Source of the DNA: Blastococcus sp. PRF04-17 | GTDB lineage: Bacteria; Actinomycetota; Actinomycetes; Mycobacteriales; Geodermatophilaceae | DNA: 64,000 nucleotides | Direction of reading: 5' to 3' | Assembly (NCBI RefSeq): GCF_023016265.1 | Contig: NZ_CP095412.1 | Location: 3,906,001-3,970,000 of the forward strand | Made by a program: the position numbers and the translations under genes | Notes under the pieces: model-generated | What the model saw: only the letters and a program-made list of their open reading frames with translations | What the model was told of the DNA's origin: nothing | Database searches by the model: none | In this document: piece by piece, positions 39,152-47,673 of the stretch | Position numbering within the stretch: position 1 is the stretch's first letter | Layout of the letters: each line of letters begins with the position of its first letter

Positions 39152-40669
39152 TCAACCCGCCAGGGCATCCCACACGTCGTGTGCATACTGCTCCCACGTC
39201 CTCCGCGGGCGGGCGCGCGCCGCCGTGGCCAGCCGCCGGTGCGCCTCGTCGTCGGTGAGGACGGTGCGCAGGCCGGCAGCGATGCTCGAGTCGTCGCGCG
39301 GATCGACCAGGAGCGCTCCACCATCTGCCGCGATCTCCGCCATCGAGCCGAAGTTCGACGTGACGGCGGGGGTGCCGCAGGACAAGGCTTCGGCGACGGG
39401 GAGCCCGAAACCCTCGTTCAGGGACGGGAACACCATACATCTGGCCAGCCGGTAGGCCGCCCACAACGTGCTGTCCGACATCGTGGTGACCGTCTCCACG
39501 GGGCGCCCGCGGGCCTGCGCCACGGCGAGTTCCCTGGTGAAGCGCTCGTCGTTCCAGGACCGGCCGCCCACCAGGACGAGGTTGAAGCGCAGTCCCTCGC
39601 GCCACAGCAGTTCCGCGGCGTGCAGCAGGGCCAGGTGGTTCTTGCGCGGCTCGTGCGTGCCGACGCAGAGCACCATCGGCATGCCGGGGACCAGCAGCCG
39701 GGCACGGGCGTCGTCCAGCTCGTCCGGGGTGCTGCCGGGCACCTCGCCGGGCAACGGCTCGACGGAGATCTCGGGCCCCCCGGCGCCGACGGAGGACAGC
39801 ATCGTGCGCCACCCGCGGTACTCGGCCGCGGCCGCGGAGGAGATGGTCGACACCCGGTCCATGTGACGGACGGCGGCGAGGTTGGTCGCGAACGCCTCGC
39901 TCACGCCCATCGCCGTCGTCTCCCCGGTGGTCATGGGCACGCAGTCGAAGCCGATCACGCCGGTCCGGCACCTCGCGAACTGGGCGAGGGCGGCGATCCG
40001 CTCGTTGCGCGGGCGTTCCAGCGACAGCTCCGGCAGCAGGTACGTGGACTCCCACGGGACGACGACGACGTCCCGCTCGCCTGCCGGGCCAGGGGCGCCG
40101 TCGCCGGTCAGCGCCCTGGCGCACTCCGGCGGGGTCAGCAGCCGGAGGTGCCGGTACCCGCTGTCCCAGCCGACCAGCCGCAGCTCGTGCCCGGCGGCCC
40201 AGCGCCGGACCGTCTCGCGCGCCACCCGCTGGATGCCGGTCGCCAGACCGGCCCGCGCGGTGTGGTCCACGTCGACGAGCACGGCGCCGCGCAGCACGCG
40301 CACCTCCGGGCGGTGCCGGAATCCACCCAGCCAGGACGTCACCAACGGTGCGGTCCGCGAGCCGAACGCGGCACCCGGTCCGTCGAGCCGGATGGCGCGA
40401 ACGGTACGGCGGACCTCCGGCGCGGTCGCCAACCGGGCCTCGAGCACCGACAGGGCCAGCCACACGGCCGAGGCGTCCGCCGGTGCGAGGAGCCGCTCGA
40501 AGCGCGGGACGAGTTCGCCGCGGTCCCCGGGCGCCGGCTCCCCGGACAGCGTCGACACGATCGACGCGATCCGGTCGAGCAGCGCCGTCCGCTCGGCGGG
40601 GGAGACGGCGCGCAGCCGCGCGGACAGCGAGTGCGGCATGCCCACCTGCGCGGCGGTGCCGGTGCTCAT
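39152..40669 (-). CDS. Glycosyltransferase family 4-like protein (cassette copy B, third gene)
   Basis: 505 aa. C-terminal GT-B/GT4 donor domain with LCVGTHEPRKNHLALLHAAE, VGGRSWND and FPSLNEGFGLPVAEALSCG. The N-terminal region is unusual: about 120 residues of helix, then VLVDVDHTARAGLATGIQRV and VARETVRRW, a motif shared by four glycosyltransferases in this locus. It is closest to the gene at 43741-45234 (shared RTGVIGFDCVP, VPW.STY). ATG 40669 overlaps the upstream stop by 4 bp. Likely adds a sugar to the polymer exported by Wzm/Wzt; donor and linkage unknown. Confidence 0.85.
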   Translation of the reverse strand: MSTGTAAQVGMPHSLSARLRAVSPAERTALLDRIASIVSTLSGEPAPGDRGELVPRFERLLAPADASAVWLALSVLEARLATAPEVRRTVRAIRLDGPGAAFGSRTAPLVTSWLGGFRHRPEVRVLRGAVLVDVDHTARAGLATGIQRVARETVRRWAAGHELRLVGWDSGYRHLRLLTPPECARALTGDGAPGPAGERDVVVVPWESTYLLPELSLERPRNERIAALAQFARCRTGVIGFDCVPMTTGETTAMGVSEAFATNLAAVRHMDRVSTISSAAAAEYRGWRTMLSSVGAGGPEISVEPLPGEVPGSTPDELDDARARLLVPGMPMVLCVGTHEPRKNHLALLHAAELLWREGLRFNLVLVGGRSWNDERFTRELAVAQARGRPVETVTTMSDSTLWAAYRLARCMVFPSLNEGFGLPVAEALSCGTPAVTSNFGSMAEIAADGGALLVDPRDDSSIAAGLRTVLTDDEAHRRLATAARARPRRTWEQYAHDVWDALAG

Positions 40670-42183
40670 CGCGGCCCCTGCCCGGTGTCCTGCCCGACCA
40701 CCAGGGCCGCCCACAGCTCGCGGGCGTAGTCGTCCCAGGTCCGCGGGCAGCGCCGCAGCGCCTGCTCCCGCAGGGTCGACACCAACTGGTCGTCGGTGAG
40801 CAGCCGGCGCATCTGCTCGGCGATCGCCAGGTCGTCGGTCGGGTCCACGGTCACCGCCCCGCCGCCGGCTGCGATCTCGCGAGTGCTGCCGGTGTCGCTG
40901 GTCAGGCACGGTGTGCCGCAGGCCAGTGACTCCGCGACCGGGAGGCCGAAACCCTCGTGCAGCGAGACGAACACCGAGAAGCGGGCGGCGCGGACGGTTC
41001 CCCAGAGCTGTTCGTCGCTGACCGCGGTCCGCCGCCGGACCGGGCGCCCCGCGGCGACCAGCCGCCCCAGCATCGCGTCGAACTCGGTCGGCAGGCCGCT
41101 GCCGCCGATGAACTCCAGGCGGAAGTCCAGCCCCGCCCGCCAGAGGTGCTCGGCGGCGTGCAGCACCGCGAGCTGGTTCTTCCGGGGTTCGAAGCTGCCG
41201 ATGCAGACGACCAGCGGCGCGCCGGTACCGGCGACCGGCTCGCCCGGTGGCATCTCCACGGGGAGGACGCACTCCACGACCGAGGGCCCGCGCAGCCCCT
41301 GCGCGACCAGCATGTCGACGAACCCCGCGAACTCGCGGGTCGCCGCCGCGCTGATGCCCGCGACGCGGTGCGCGTGCTTGACCGCCTCCAGGTAGCGCAT
41401 GAAGCGGTCGGGCAGGCCCGGCGGGATCAGGTCGGGGCTGATCGCGGGAATGCAGTCGTAGCCGATGAGGCCCGTCCGGCTGCCGGAGTACAGGGACATG
41501 GCCGCCACTGCCGGGCAGTGCTCCGGCGGGGGGTTCTCCGGGAAGAGCACGGTGCAGTGCCAGGGGACGAGCAGGCGGTGCGGCGGCCGGCCGGTGCCCG
41601 CGGCCCCGGCGGCGGCCCGGGCGCCGTGCCAGCGCAGGATGCGGTCGGTCTCGGCGGGCCCCAGGGAACGCATGGCGCCTCCCGCCTCGGTCCAGGCCGC
41701 GAGCACGAGCTCGTGCTCGCGGTGCCAGCGGGGCACCGTCTCCCGGACCACGCGCTGGATCCCGGTGTGCAGGTCGTGGCGGGCCGTGAAGTCGACGTCG
41801 ACGACCACGGCCGACGCCACGACGTCCATCTCCAGGTCGGGGCTGCCGGCGTCGCCCGCCGCGACGTAGGAGGCCTCCAGCAGCCAGGTCGCGAGGTCCG
41901 CGGGACCCCCCAGGTCCCGCGCACGCATCCCGGCCCTGATGTCCTCGGGTTCGGGCAGGGCGCCGGACATGGCCGTCATCAGCAGCCACAGCGAGTCCGT
42001 CCCCGGGTCCCCGTGGACGTGCTCGACCAGACGCCCGTACAGCTGGGAGACCGCGAGGGTCGTCTCCGGTGCGACCCGGGTGTCGAGTCCGAGCGCGGCC
42101 GCGGTGACGCCGAGGCGCTGGCGGAGAGCGGACAGGCGGTCCGGGCTCCGGGGAGGAGCGGCCACGTCGGTGGCGGCGGTCAT
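40666..42183 (-). CDS. Glycosyltransferase family 4-like protein (cassette copy B, second gene)
   Basis: 505 aa, the same length as its downstream neighbour. N-terminal helical part, then VVVDVDFTARHDLHTGIQRV and VRETVPRWH; C-terminal GT-B domain with VVCIGSFEPRKNQLAVLHAA, EFIGGSGLP and VSLHEGFGLPVAESLACG. Closest relative in the window is the gene at 45231-46747 (shared HAHRVAGISA, YDCIP/YDMIP, VSLHEG). ATG 42183 overlaps the stop of the small coiled-coil gene by 4 bp. Probable polysaccharide glycosyltransferase, specificity unknown. Confidence 0.85.
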   Translation of the reverse strand: MTAATDVAAPPRSPDRLSALRQRLGVTAAALGLDTRVAPETTLAVSQLYGRLVEHVHGDPGTDSLWLLMTAMSGALPEPEDIRAGMRARDLGGPADLATWLLEASYVAAGDAGSPDLEMDVVASAVVVDVDFTARHDLHTGIQRVVRETVPRWHREHELVLAAWTEAGGAMRSLGPAETDRILRWHGARAAAGAAGTGRPPHRLLVPWHCTVLFPENPPPEHCPAVAAMSLYSGSRTGLIGYDCIPAISPDLIPPGLPDRFMRYLEAVKHAHRVAGISAAATREFAGFVDMLVAQGLRGPSVVECVLPVEMPPGEPVAGTGAPLVVCIGSFEPRKNQLAVLHAAEHLWRAGLDFRLEFIGGSGLPTEFDAMLGRLVAAGRPVRRRTAVSDEQLWGTVRAARFSVFVSLHEGFGLPVAESLACGTPCLTSDTGSTREIAAGGGAVTVDPTDDLAIAEQMRRLLTDDQLVSTLREQALRRCPRTWDDYARELWAALVVGQDTGQGPR

Positions 42184-46747: not shown

Positions 46748-47673
46748 GACGAACGGACTCGGCCCAGCACGGTGCGGACCCCGCGCAGCGGGCGGGTGAT
46801 CCGCCAGGAGAGCGTGTTGCGGATCGCCTCGAGCTCCTCGGCCAGCCGCGCGCGCTCCTCGGCCGCGGCCATGCCGACCTGTCCGACCACATCGGCCCAC
46901 TGGGTGAGGGCCACCGTCCGCCAGTGCGTGGTCTCCGTCAGCAGCCGGTCGACCTTCTGCAGGGCCAGGTCGTGGCCGTGGGTCAGGTAGCCGTCGTGCA
47001 CGCAGGCGGGATAGCTCAGCGCCGCCTTGAGCTCCGACGCCCGCTCGGCGGCCACGTAGTAGCGGGACAGCCCGTCGAAGAGGCAGTACTCGTAACCCGC
47101 CTCGAGGACGCCGTCCTCCCACTCGCCGTGGGTCGACGCCGTCGAGTTCGGCTCGGTGGCCTCGATGACCAGCACCCACGGCCGCCACCGGCGCAGGTCG
47201 ATGCTCTGCAGCACCTCCTGCTCGGCGCCCTCGACGTCGACCAGCAGGAAGTGGATGTCCTCGTCCTCCGACCACCCCTGATCGGCCAGGAGCGCGTCCA
47301 GCCGGACGGCCGGGACGCCGAGTTCCTCGGTGGCGATCCCCGAGGCGACGTGCTGGTCGCTGACCGCGTCCACGATGGTGGACAGCCCGGTCCCCGGGAC
47401 GACGTGCAGGGTCACCTCGCCGACGTCCCGGTGGGTGACGGCCGCCTCGACCAGCGTGTCGCGGGGGCGCTGCTCGCGGTGGAGGTCGGCGAAGTAGGGC
47501 ACCGGCTCGACCGTGAGACCGCGCCACCCCCGCTCGTAGAACGCGAAGGTGGCCGAGTCGTGGGTCGGATGGTTCGCGCCGACCTCCACGTAGCGGCCGG
47601 CGGGGATGTGGCCCAGTGCTCGGAAGAGCACCACGTCCTCGCGGTTCTGGGCGTAGGAGATGAAGGGCGGCAC
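46744..47673 (-). CDS. FkbM family methyltransferase with C-terminal SWRIT tail (cassette copy A, first gene)
   Basis: 309 aa. FkbM domain: [14 protein letters not shown], the SAM motif [26 protein letters not shown], and [20 protein letters not shown]. The last 70 residues form a helix ending [17 protein letters not shown], a tail type seen on several polysaccharide-cluster proteins. FkbM enzymes O-methylate sugars, which could decorate or cap the polymer. GTG 47673 is preceded by TATGAT at six bases, so the message is leaderless and starts the long minus-strand operon toward wzm-wzt. Confidence 0.88.

Follow-up and report, generated by a model that had tools for sequence, protein, structure and literature searches.

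An export locus of the soil actinobacterium Blastococcus sp. PRF04-17 carries two blocks of glycosyltransferase (GT) genes, each headed by a leader gene, and one of the two leaders is very short. Is one block a copy of the other with a decayed lead gene, and what could a leader that lacks its enzymatic domain contribute to making a polysaccharide? We address these questions for a window of 64,000 nt (GCF_023016265.1, NZ_CP095412.1 positions 3,906,001-3,970,000); coordinates below are positions within this window.

Anatomy of the export locus

Both blocks were recovered with the strand, gene order, and positions given in the initial annotation, and the 4-bp overlaps it reported are present at all four junctions of blocks A and B. 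All genes of the two blocks lie on the minus strand. Block A begins with A1 (46744..47673), an FkbM methyltransferase as first proposed (PF05050, 8e-27), with an intact SAM motif (YVEVGANHP) followed by a helical region and a SWRITRPLR tail (motif at 46783-46809). Next come A2, a GT2-type glycosyltransferase, and A3 (43741..45234; PF00534, 1.1e-25), which is GT3-type by its place in the tree. Block B consists of B1 (42180..42524), which is indeed a 114-aa protein with SWRITAPLR at its C-terminus (motif at 42216-42242), and of B2 (40666..42183; PF00534, 2.5e-20) and B3 (39152..40669; PF00534, 3.8e-30), placed by the tree as GT2-type and GT3-type, respectively. The separate GT noted between the blocks is present (GTm; 42534..43652, minus strand) and is conserved in Klenkia and Modestobacter loci.

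A Wzm-type ABC-2 permease (38205..39095; PF01061, 3.4e-16, with NCBIfam Wzm/KpsM matches under cut-off) and a Wzt ATPase part (37372..38202) adjoin the GTs on the same strand. The C-terminal carbohydrate-binding domain of Wzt, the mark of the capped subtype, follows in another frame (36992..37426; PF14524 Wzt_C, 4.7e-19), the gene being split near 37,430. On the plus strand lie gmd, encoding GDP-mannose 4,6-dehydratase (47801..48787; TIGR01472, 421 bits, cut-off 415), and a GMD paralogue (48784..49764; TIGR01472, 300 bits, under cut-off). This gene content (Wzm, Wzt with Wzt_C, two GMD-type genes) identifies the region as an ABC-transporter-dependent polysaccharide locus, and its polymer is probably a 6-deoxyhexose/mannose chain built from GDP-sugars. 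Across the 63 loci that we compared, 52 show a Wzt within the stretch examined and 49 show a GMD-type gene.

The GMD and RMD HMMs cross-match each other's genes. We rejected RMD as the identity of the second GMD-type gene because it matches GMDs far better: its best solved matches are GMDs (3.3e-74), with RMD 2pk3 at just 2.4e-22. It also keeps the residues SSAEIF and YGAAK, which we take to be dehydratase-like motifs. The paralogue may possibly serve the reductase step, which in the GDP-D-rhamnose pathway (GMD + RMD) falls to a dedicated RMD.

A2 had been described as a single open gene, but the interval 45231-46747 is 1517 nt, which is not a multiple of three. The gene is open only as two frames with a junction near 45,920, an N-terminal piece (45824..46747) and a C-terminal piece (45231..45845), both GT2-type and on the minus strand; its counterparts in URHB0062 and Modestobacter VKM Ac-2982 are single frames. 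Likewise, the Wzt ATPase and PF14524 domain share one frame in relatives and occupy two in the window assembly. In all, eight of 22 window genes are split relative to their counterparts in URHB0062 and Modestobacter VKM Ac-2982, and genome completeness is 95.89, compared with 99-100 in nine other one-contig genomes. Assembly error is therefore a likelier source of the split genes than biology, and a programmed frameshift in A2 was set aside because so many of the compared genes are split in the same assembly.

Ancestry of the two blocks

The gene-by-gene pairing of the blocks holds in the tree, where a branch with full support divides the GT2s from the GT3s (63 vs 63 rows); the A2/B2 and A3/B3 pairs are thus real at the family level. 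The motifs RTGVIGFDCVP, EPRKNHLA, and FPSLNEGFGLPVAE are common to A3 and B3, as reported. Of the second genes, for which HAHRVAGISA was given as common, B2 contains this string and A2 has no exact match to it.

The initial annotation viewed the blocks as a duplicated cassette with one lead gene reduced to a stub. Read as a local tandem event, this would mean one cassette copied in place, with subsequent decay of one lead gene. Gene order and overlaps are equal in both blocks, the start regions of A1 and B1 can be aligned, and A3 and B3 share 54% identity, all of which would fit such an event. However, the nearest relatives of the two blocks differ: block A falls among Cellulomonadaceae (Actinotalea, Cellulomonas) and block B among Geodermatophilaceae (Klenkia, Modestobacter), and a single clade of A and B is rejected (p-AU 3.7e-8, for a group defined once the tree had been seen). 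A local tandem duplication is accordingly very improbable, and an ancient duplication with many losses could still lie behind the two blocks. Blocks A and B have different ancestries despite lying at the same export locus, and they are most unlikely to stem from a recent local duplication.

Leaders with and without a methyltransferase

The order of tail-bearing leader, GT, and GT also occurs elsewhere. The loci compared were the window, L031-L036, and L040-L099 minus the duplicates L040, L042, L045, and L083, with hosts that are nearly all actinobacteria; the 16 distant loci L100-L115 were excluded from leader counts. Of these 63 loci, 56 contain GT2-GT3 pairs, which make up 63 blocks in all. 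The other seven gave no block: L036, L074, and L098 are at contig edges, and in L056, L063, L065, and L070, all from Subtercola, we saw no GT2 and GT3 side by side. A separate SWR-tail leader is present in 50 of the 63 blocks and ends -24 to +35 nt from the GT2 match, so the initial idea of a repeating leader-GT-GT module for an exported polymer stands. These leaders comprise 18 with an intact methyltransferase and tail, seven with a decayed methyltransferase and tail (four of them faint, 11-19 bits), and 25 with a tail only, 22 of which are from Microbacteriaceae. At most 82-128 residues can be read from the first start codon in 21 of the tail-only leaders, and those of L071, L072, L086, and L097 have longer frames (up to 354) without a methyltransferase match. 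In two further blocks, GT2 itself carries the tail at its N-terminus as a gene fusion (2 of 153 GT frames). The SWR motif is absent from three Nocardioides leaders and three small Microbacteriaceae leaders, and we detected no leader at one L076 block. Intact and not-intact states of the methyltransferase require at least seven changes on the GT tree. None of the seven two-block loci has two intact methyltransferases, and four pair one intact leader with one methyltransferase-less tail leader.

Searches with the tail itself, in which 15 candidates per genome were scored, yielded it in at least 42 of 394 genomes order-wide and at least 8 of 396 phylum-wide. In the order-wide searches, a tail match lies within 150 nt upstream of GT2 in 12 of the 15 genomes with the GT family; of the three without such a match, two end at a contig edge. 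One genome (G128) has a GT pair without an adjoining tail leader and a methyltransferase-tail gene ~18 kb away. Among the 150 of 247 candidates that were scored in the PRF04-17 genome, two such tails appear at E up to 10, both of them at the locus studied here. Other coiled-coil-like proteins, encoded near single GTs, also have a similar tail at their end, and thus the partner of the tail need not be a GT2-GT3 pair.

In B1, about the first 14 codons, start included, correspond to those of an FkbM leader and run in frame straight into the helical stretch and SWRITAPLR tail; profile search gave no methyltransferase match in B1. This structure indicates that B1 lost its methyltransferase through an in-frame internal deletion. 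In the URHB0062 sister of B1, the SAM motif is gone along with part of the methyltransferase domain, and dN/dS between B1 and this sister is 0.45 overall and 0.34 across the last 60 codons. The stub of the initial annotation is more than a decayed copy, since Microbacteriaceae commonly have tail-only leaders and the tails of these are conserved.

The tails of nine methyltransferase-less leaders score like those of the 18 intact ones (p 0.23), and dN/dS of tail-only leaders is 0.05-0.43 (eight pairs); values overlap without sharp separation, as decayed methyltransferase parts give 0.51 and 0.58 and one tail pair 0.82. Tail distances track GT distances (r 0.58, 50 blocks), a correlation partly due to vertical inheritance. 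The invariance of SWR[VI]TxPLR is partly built in, because the 50 tails were chosen by a pattern that already requires part of the motif. The tail end is basic, with a mean net charge of +6 to +10 by class.

It is unlikely, in our assessment, that B1 is debris, i.e., an outgoing pseudogene kept by its operon position and by a stop/start overlap that serves B2 translation. The lineage of B1 is decaying, as its URHB0062 sister illustrates, its dN/dS of 0.45 is not very low and is similar to that of decayed methyltransferase parts, and translational coupling through the 4-bp B1/B2 overlap could alone keep the frame. Yet tail-only leaders recur in 25 of 63 blocks with low dN/dS in the pairs compared, tail scores hold up after methyltransferase loss, and coupling explains neither the conservation of SWR[VI]TxPLR nor the two tail-GT2 fusions.

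A candidate adaptor for paired glycosyltransferases

The locus is of an ordinary kind; it is the adaptor that is unusual. A1 has a WbdD-like layout, with an N-terminal methyltransferase, a helical region, and a C-terminal tail, and B1 has this layout without the methyltransferase. In E. coli, the C-terminal region of WbdD is reported to recruit WbdA and to have a membrane-associated helix (PMC3482155, PMC11231755). By analogy, we lean slightly toward a mechanism in which the leader tail, as a WbdD-like adaptor, brings the two GTs to the membrane, with the methyltransferase as an optional chain terminator. Each leader-GT-GT block would be a polymerase module: the two long GTs would elongate the chain, and the C-terminal part of the leader (helical, coiled-coil-like stretch, SWR[VI]TxPLR, basic end) would hold them at the membrane, as the WbdD C-terminal region holds WbdA. 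Where present, the FkbM domain would add a methyl group to the end of the chain, which would halt elongation and flag the product for the carbohydrate-binding domain of Wzt. B1 would be the same adaptor minus the methyltransferase domain, and the short tail-only proteins as a recurrent class probably hold chain-building enzymes at the membrane. The tail-GT2 fusions and the basic tail end indirectly suggest such recruitment.

The likeness to the WbdD/WbdA systems (E. coli O9a, O8; K. pneumoniae O3, O5) includes a single protein that combines a methyltransferase, a helical stretch (here coiled-coil-like), and a C-terminal region, as well as polymerase GTs encoded separately from it and Wzm plus a Wzt with a C-terminal carbohydrate-binding domain. 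Unlike WbdD, to which it is likened by architecture, the methyltransferase here belongs to the FkbM type and is followed by a short predicted helix, many leaders keep the tail without the terminator domain, and the hosts are nearly all actinobacteria; unlike WbdA, the putative polymerase is two separate long GTs. An AF2 model of A1 has a methyltransferase fold and helices at 232-265 and 270-308 (34 and 39 residues), the second, or tail helix, with low confidence (pLDDT 53-70). At 34 residues, the first modeled helix would make a short molecular ruler. By phmmer, no solved chain matched A1 at E 0.01, and no solved structure matched the tail at E up to 1. Six exact tail strings had no match in open-licence PMC papers, and the titles and abstract starts of the open-licence PMC matches listed contain no description of an actinobacterial leader-GT-GT module.

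The WzmWzt of Aquifex aeolicus is reported to export a 3-O-methyl-capped rhamnose/mannose O antigen whose methyl caps are recognized by the carbohydrate-binding domain (PMC9445017). The Wzt of a relative aligns with this protein (8dku, query residues 25-356); the phmmer alignment ends at chain residue 351, short of the cap-pocket Trp362. Where Wzt is complete within the stretch examined and the leader is fused and intact, Wzt is always long (12/12 loci). Strict coupling of methyltransferase loss with Wzt domain loss was rejected, and the link between terminator and Wzt is one-sided, because among the 25 tail-only blocks Wzt is short for 12, long for 10, cut by the stretch end for two, and split for that of the window.

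Block B, of Geodermatophilaceae type and joined to Wzm/Wzt, and block A, of Cellulomonadaceae type, would then serve one polymer, e.g., as two successive segments for which one terminator (A1) would be enough. The K. pneumoniae O1 antigen offers a precedent for a pair of modules acting on the same polymer: there WbbY, a second polymerase of presumed lateral origin, is reported to add a distinct repeat domain to the O2a chain (PMC10629545). Unlike that system, with its single two-module GT, unlinked locus, and pyruvyl cap, here a leader-GT-GT module lies inside the main locus. There is a lesser chance that blocks A and B make two separate polymers that leave through a shared exporter. They differ in ancestry, each has a complete GT pair, and in Modestobacter VKM Ac-2982 block A is on the opposite side of the GMD genes; against this, a single Wzm/Wzt pair is seen at the window locus, and in four two-block loci just a single terminator is intact.

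In the E. coli O9a model, one protein does recruitment, measuring, and termination. Here, evolution appears to have split these roles repeatedly, with the terminator domain lost and the tail retained, which makes it directly testable which part organizes the polymerase. More tentatively, the actinobacterial stand-alone adaptor (~80-130 residues, SWR[VI]TxPLR) might be an exchangeable dock for paired polymerase GTs; terminator domains would be gained and lost, and adaptor-GT-GT modules would move between lineages and stack at one exporter, giving block polysaccharides with a single terminator. The tail can serve as a query for finding polymerase modules of soil actinobacteria that are still uncharacterised, and the PRF04-17 locus is a case of modules with different origins apparently stacked at one exporter.

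Two glycosyltransferase blocks at an export locus

Two blocks of a leader gene followed by two glycosyltransferase (GT) genes lie on the minus strand where the initial annotation had placed them, and every junction is a 4-bp overlap in the window sequence. Block A consists of the leader A1 (46744-47673), the GT2-type A2 (45231-46747), and the GT3-type A3 (43741-45234); block B consists of B1 (42180-42524), B2 (40666-42183), and B3 (39152-40669). A2 does not hold as the single open gene it was taken for: its length is not divisible by three, and it is open only as two frames that join near 45,920; it is single-frame in two relatives. 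Among comparable genes of the 30-62 kb stretch, 8 of 22, including Wzt, are split in the window and single-frame in relatives' proteins. Comparison with relatives places the splits (window 30826-62000) near 31,940; 37,430; 45,920; 50,462; 55,250; 56,325; 57,850; and 60,810. With genome completeness at 95.89 versus 99-100 in nine other one-contig genomes compared, these splits point to residual assembly errors.

Genes for a Wzm-type permease (38205-39095) and Wzt (about 36992-38202; C-terminal part PF14524) lie downstream of block B, and gmd (47801-48787) and a GMD paralogue (48784-49764) are divergent from block A. Beyond the gmd pair are a split gene with PF00483 and a further gene with PF00908, probably RmlA-like and RmlC-like, respectively. 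Three adjacent plus-strand genes (33763-36942) contain DUF4214, one with Amidase_2 and one with SpoIID; similar genes lie beside the locus in URHB0062 and Klenkia.

The leader-GT-GT order, initially proposed as a repeating module, does recur elsewhere, Geodermatophilaceae included. The nearest two-block loci are those of Geodermatophilaceae bacterium URHB0062 (G002) and Modestobacter sp. VKM Ac-2982 (G031), and Klenkia marina and others have single-block loci. In URHB0062, an extra 373-aa gene (L031:11706-12827, minus strand), unmatched among the window proteins compared, sits between the middle GT and A3. Searched at E 1e-90, the 397 genomes of the order include 15 with the GT3 family. In 12 of them, a tail (a helical stretch with SWR[VI]TxPLR) is matched no further than 150 nt upstream of GT2. 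Two of the other three (G041, G140) stop at a contig edge. In the third, G128, the GT2-GT3 pair (L190, G128:C1:3355000-3363500) adjoins GMD-type genes and Wzm/Wzt but has no tail leader immediately before it; the genome has a methyltransferase-tail gene some 18 kb from there. The scan of named genomes gave 76 loci, and the comparison took in L040-L099 of these; among all 63 loci compared, Wzt can be seen in 52 and a GMD-type gene in 49.

Ancestry of the blocks and their leaders

In a tree of 126 rows, 63 GT2s and 63 GT3s split at full support, and therefore A2/B2 and A3/B3 pair as families; the gene-by-gene pairing first read from shared motifs stands at that level. In both families, Actinotalea sp. 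C106 and Cellulomonas sp. URHE0023 (its second block) cluster with block A of the three two-block genomes; Klenkia and Modestobacter cluster with block B. Forcing nine Geodermatophilaceae blocks together, a group defined only after inspection of trees from quick searches, costs 279 log units (p-AU 3.7e-8). The blocks could instead stem from an old duplication with many losses; the simplest reading is that block A was acquired laterally. In VKM Ac-2982, block A sits across the GMD genes, on the other side.

An intact FkbM methyltransferase with the tail is present in the leaders of 18 of the 63 blocks; in 7 the methyltransferase is decayed but the tail is there, and 25 leaders have the tail alone. 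Three (Nocardioides) carry a methyltransferase but no SWR motif, 1 (record titled Acidobacteriota) has a decayed methyltransferase and a near-motif, and 9 blocks are of other kinds. In four of the seven decayed leaders (L034, L044, first block of L058, L080), the methyltransferase-model match is only 11-19 bits. The nine others include three small motif-less leaders, three blocks starting at a contig edge, one without a visible leader, and two fusions of the tail to the GT2 N-terminus, in Agromyces sp. Soil535 and Herbiconiux sp. (L086:18696-20423, minus strand; L090:4800-6575, plus strand). Intact and non-intact methyltransferase states require at least seven changes on the GT tree. The 114-aa B1 opens like A1, with a matching start context and some 14 matching codons, and then joins the tail in frame. 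In URHB0062, the sister of B1 retains a truncated methyltransferase that lacks the SAM motif, so the domain decayed first and was lost later.

Nine leaders without the methyltransferase and 18 intact ones have similar tail scores (p 0.23; model built from intact leaders). The dN/dS is 0.05-0.43 for tail-only leaders (eight pairs) and 0.45 for B1 versus its sister (0.34 over the last 60 codons), compared with 0.51 and 0.58 for decayed methyltransferase parts; the tail of A1 versus the decayed VKM Ac-2982 leader gives 0.82, and the contrast is not sharp. Tail and GT distances correlate (r 0.58 over 50 blocks; 0.55 over 27 outside the main tail-only group), partly due to common descent.

Wzt forms and tails elsewhere

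Where a locus has a fused intact leader and shows its Wzt in full, the Wzt is long (12 of 12 loci); with tail-only leaders it is short in 12, long in 10, and cut in 2, so the rule is one-sided. Five Subtercola loci and Nakamurella have a separate FkbM-plus-tail gene beyond Wzt (L067:13660-14799; near 13.2-14.3 kb in Subtercola L056, L063, L065, L070, and L072). A tail-only leader precedes GT2 in L067 and L072; in L056, L063, L065, and L070, no adjacent GT2-GT3 pair was found.

In the Blastococcus genome, two such tails were found, both at this locus (E up to 10; 150 of 247 candidates scored), and the tail occurs in at least 42 of 394 genomes of the order. Of 20 regions from 18 genomes, 19 contained it, and models found a GT (often weak), methyltransferase, or Wzm/Wzt in the stretch of 16 of these. 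In large genomes of family f15 (L174-L181, L185), coiled-coil-like proteins end in SWR[VI]TxPLR or a near form with a GT-like gene nearby, perhaps another use of this tail.

A possible adaptor role for the tail

The leader resembles WbdD in its anatomy of catalytic domain, helix, and tail, and the systems are alike in having polymerases separate from the leader and a Wzt bearing a carbohydrate-binding domain (PMC3482155, PMC11231755). In the AF2 model of A1, the methyltransferase fold is predicted with confidence and is followed by two helices, of 34 and 39 residues, the second at low confidence. We infer a docking role for the tail, which may hold the two GTs at the membrane, and a putative chain-ending role for the methyltransferase. 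The Aquifex transporter recognizes the 3-O-methyl group that caps its rhamnose/mannose O antigen (PMC9445017). Residues 25-356 of a relative's Wzt can be aligned to Aquifex Wzt (8dku), but the alignment stops short of the cap-pocket tryptophan, so the cap specificity could differ.

Seven of the compared loci have two blocks. Four of these combine an intact leader with a tail leader whose methyltransferase is decayed or absent, one has an intact leader and no visible second leader, two have no intact leader, and none has two. This pairing suits one polymer with one terminator, though seven loci prove little. Klebsiella pneumoniae O1, where a second polymerase adds a distinct domain, offers a precedent for two modules (PMC10629545). 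The window locus is of an ordinary kind; what sets it apart is the recurrent tail, a proposed adaptor, of which we found no description among the matches listed from open-licence PMC (titles and abstract starts).
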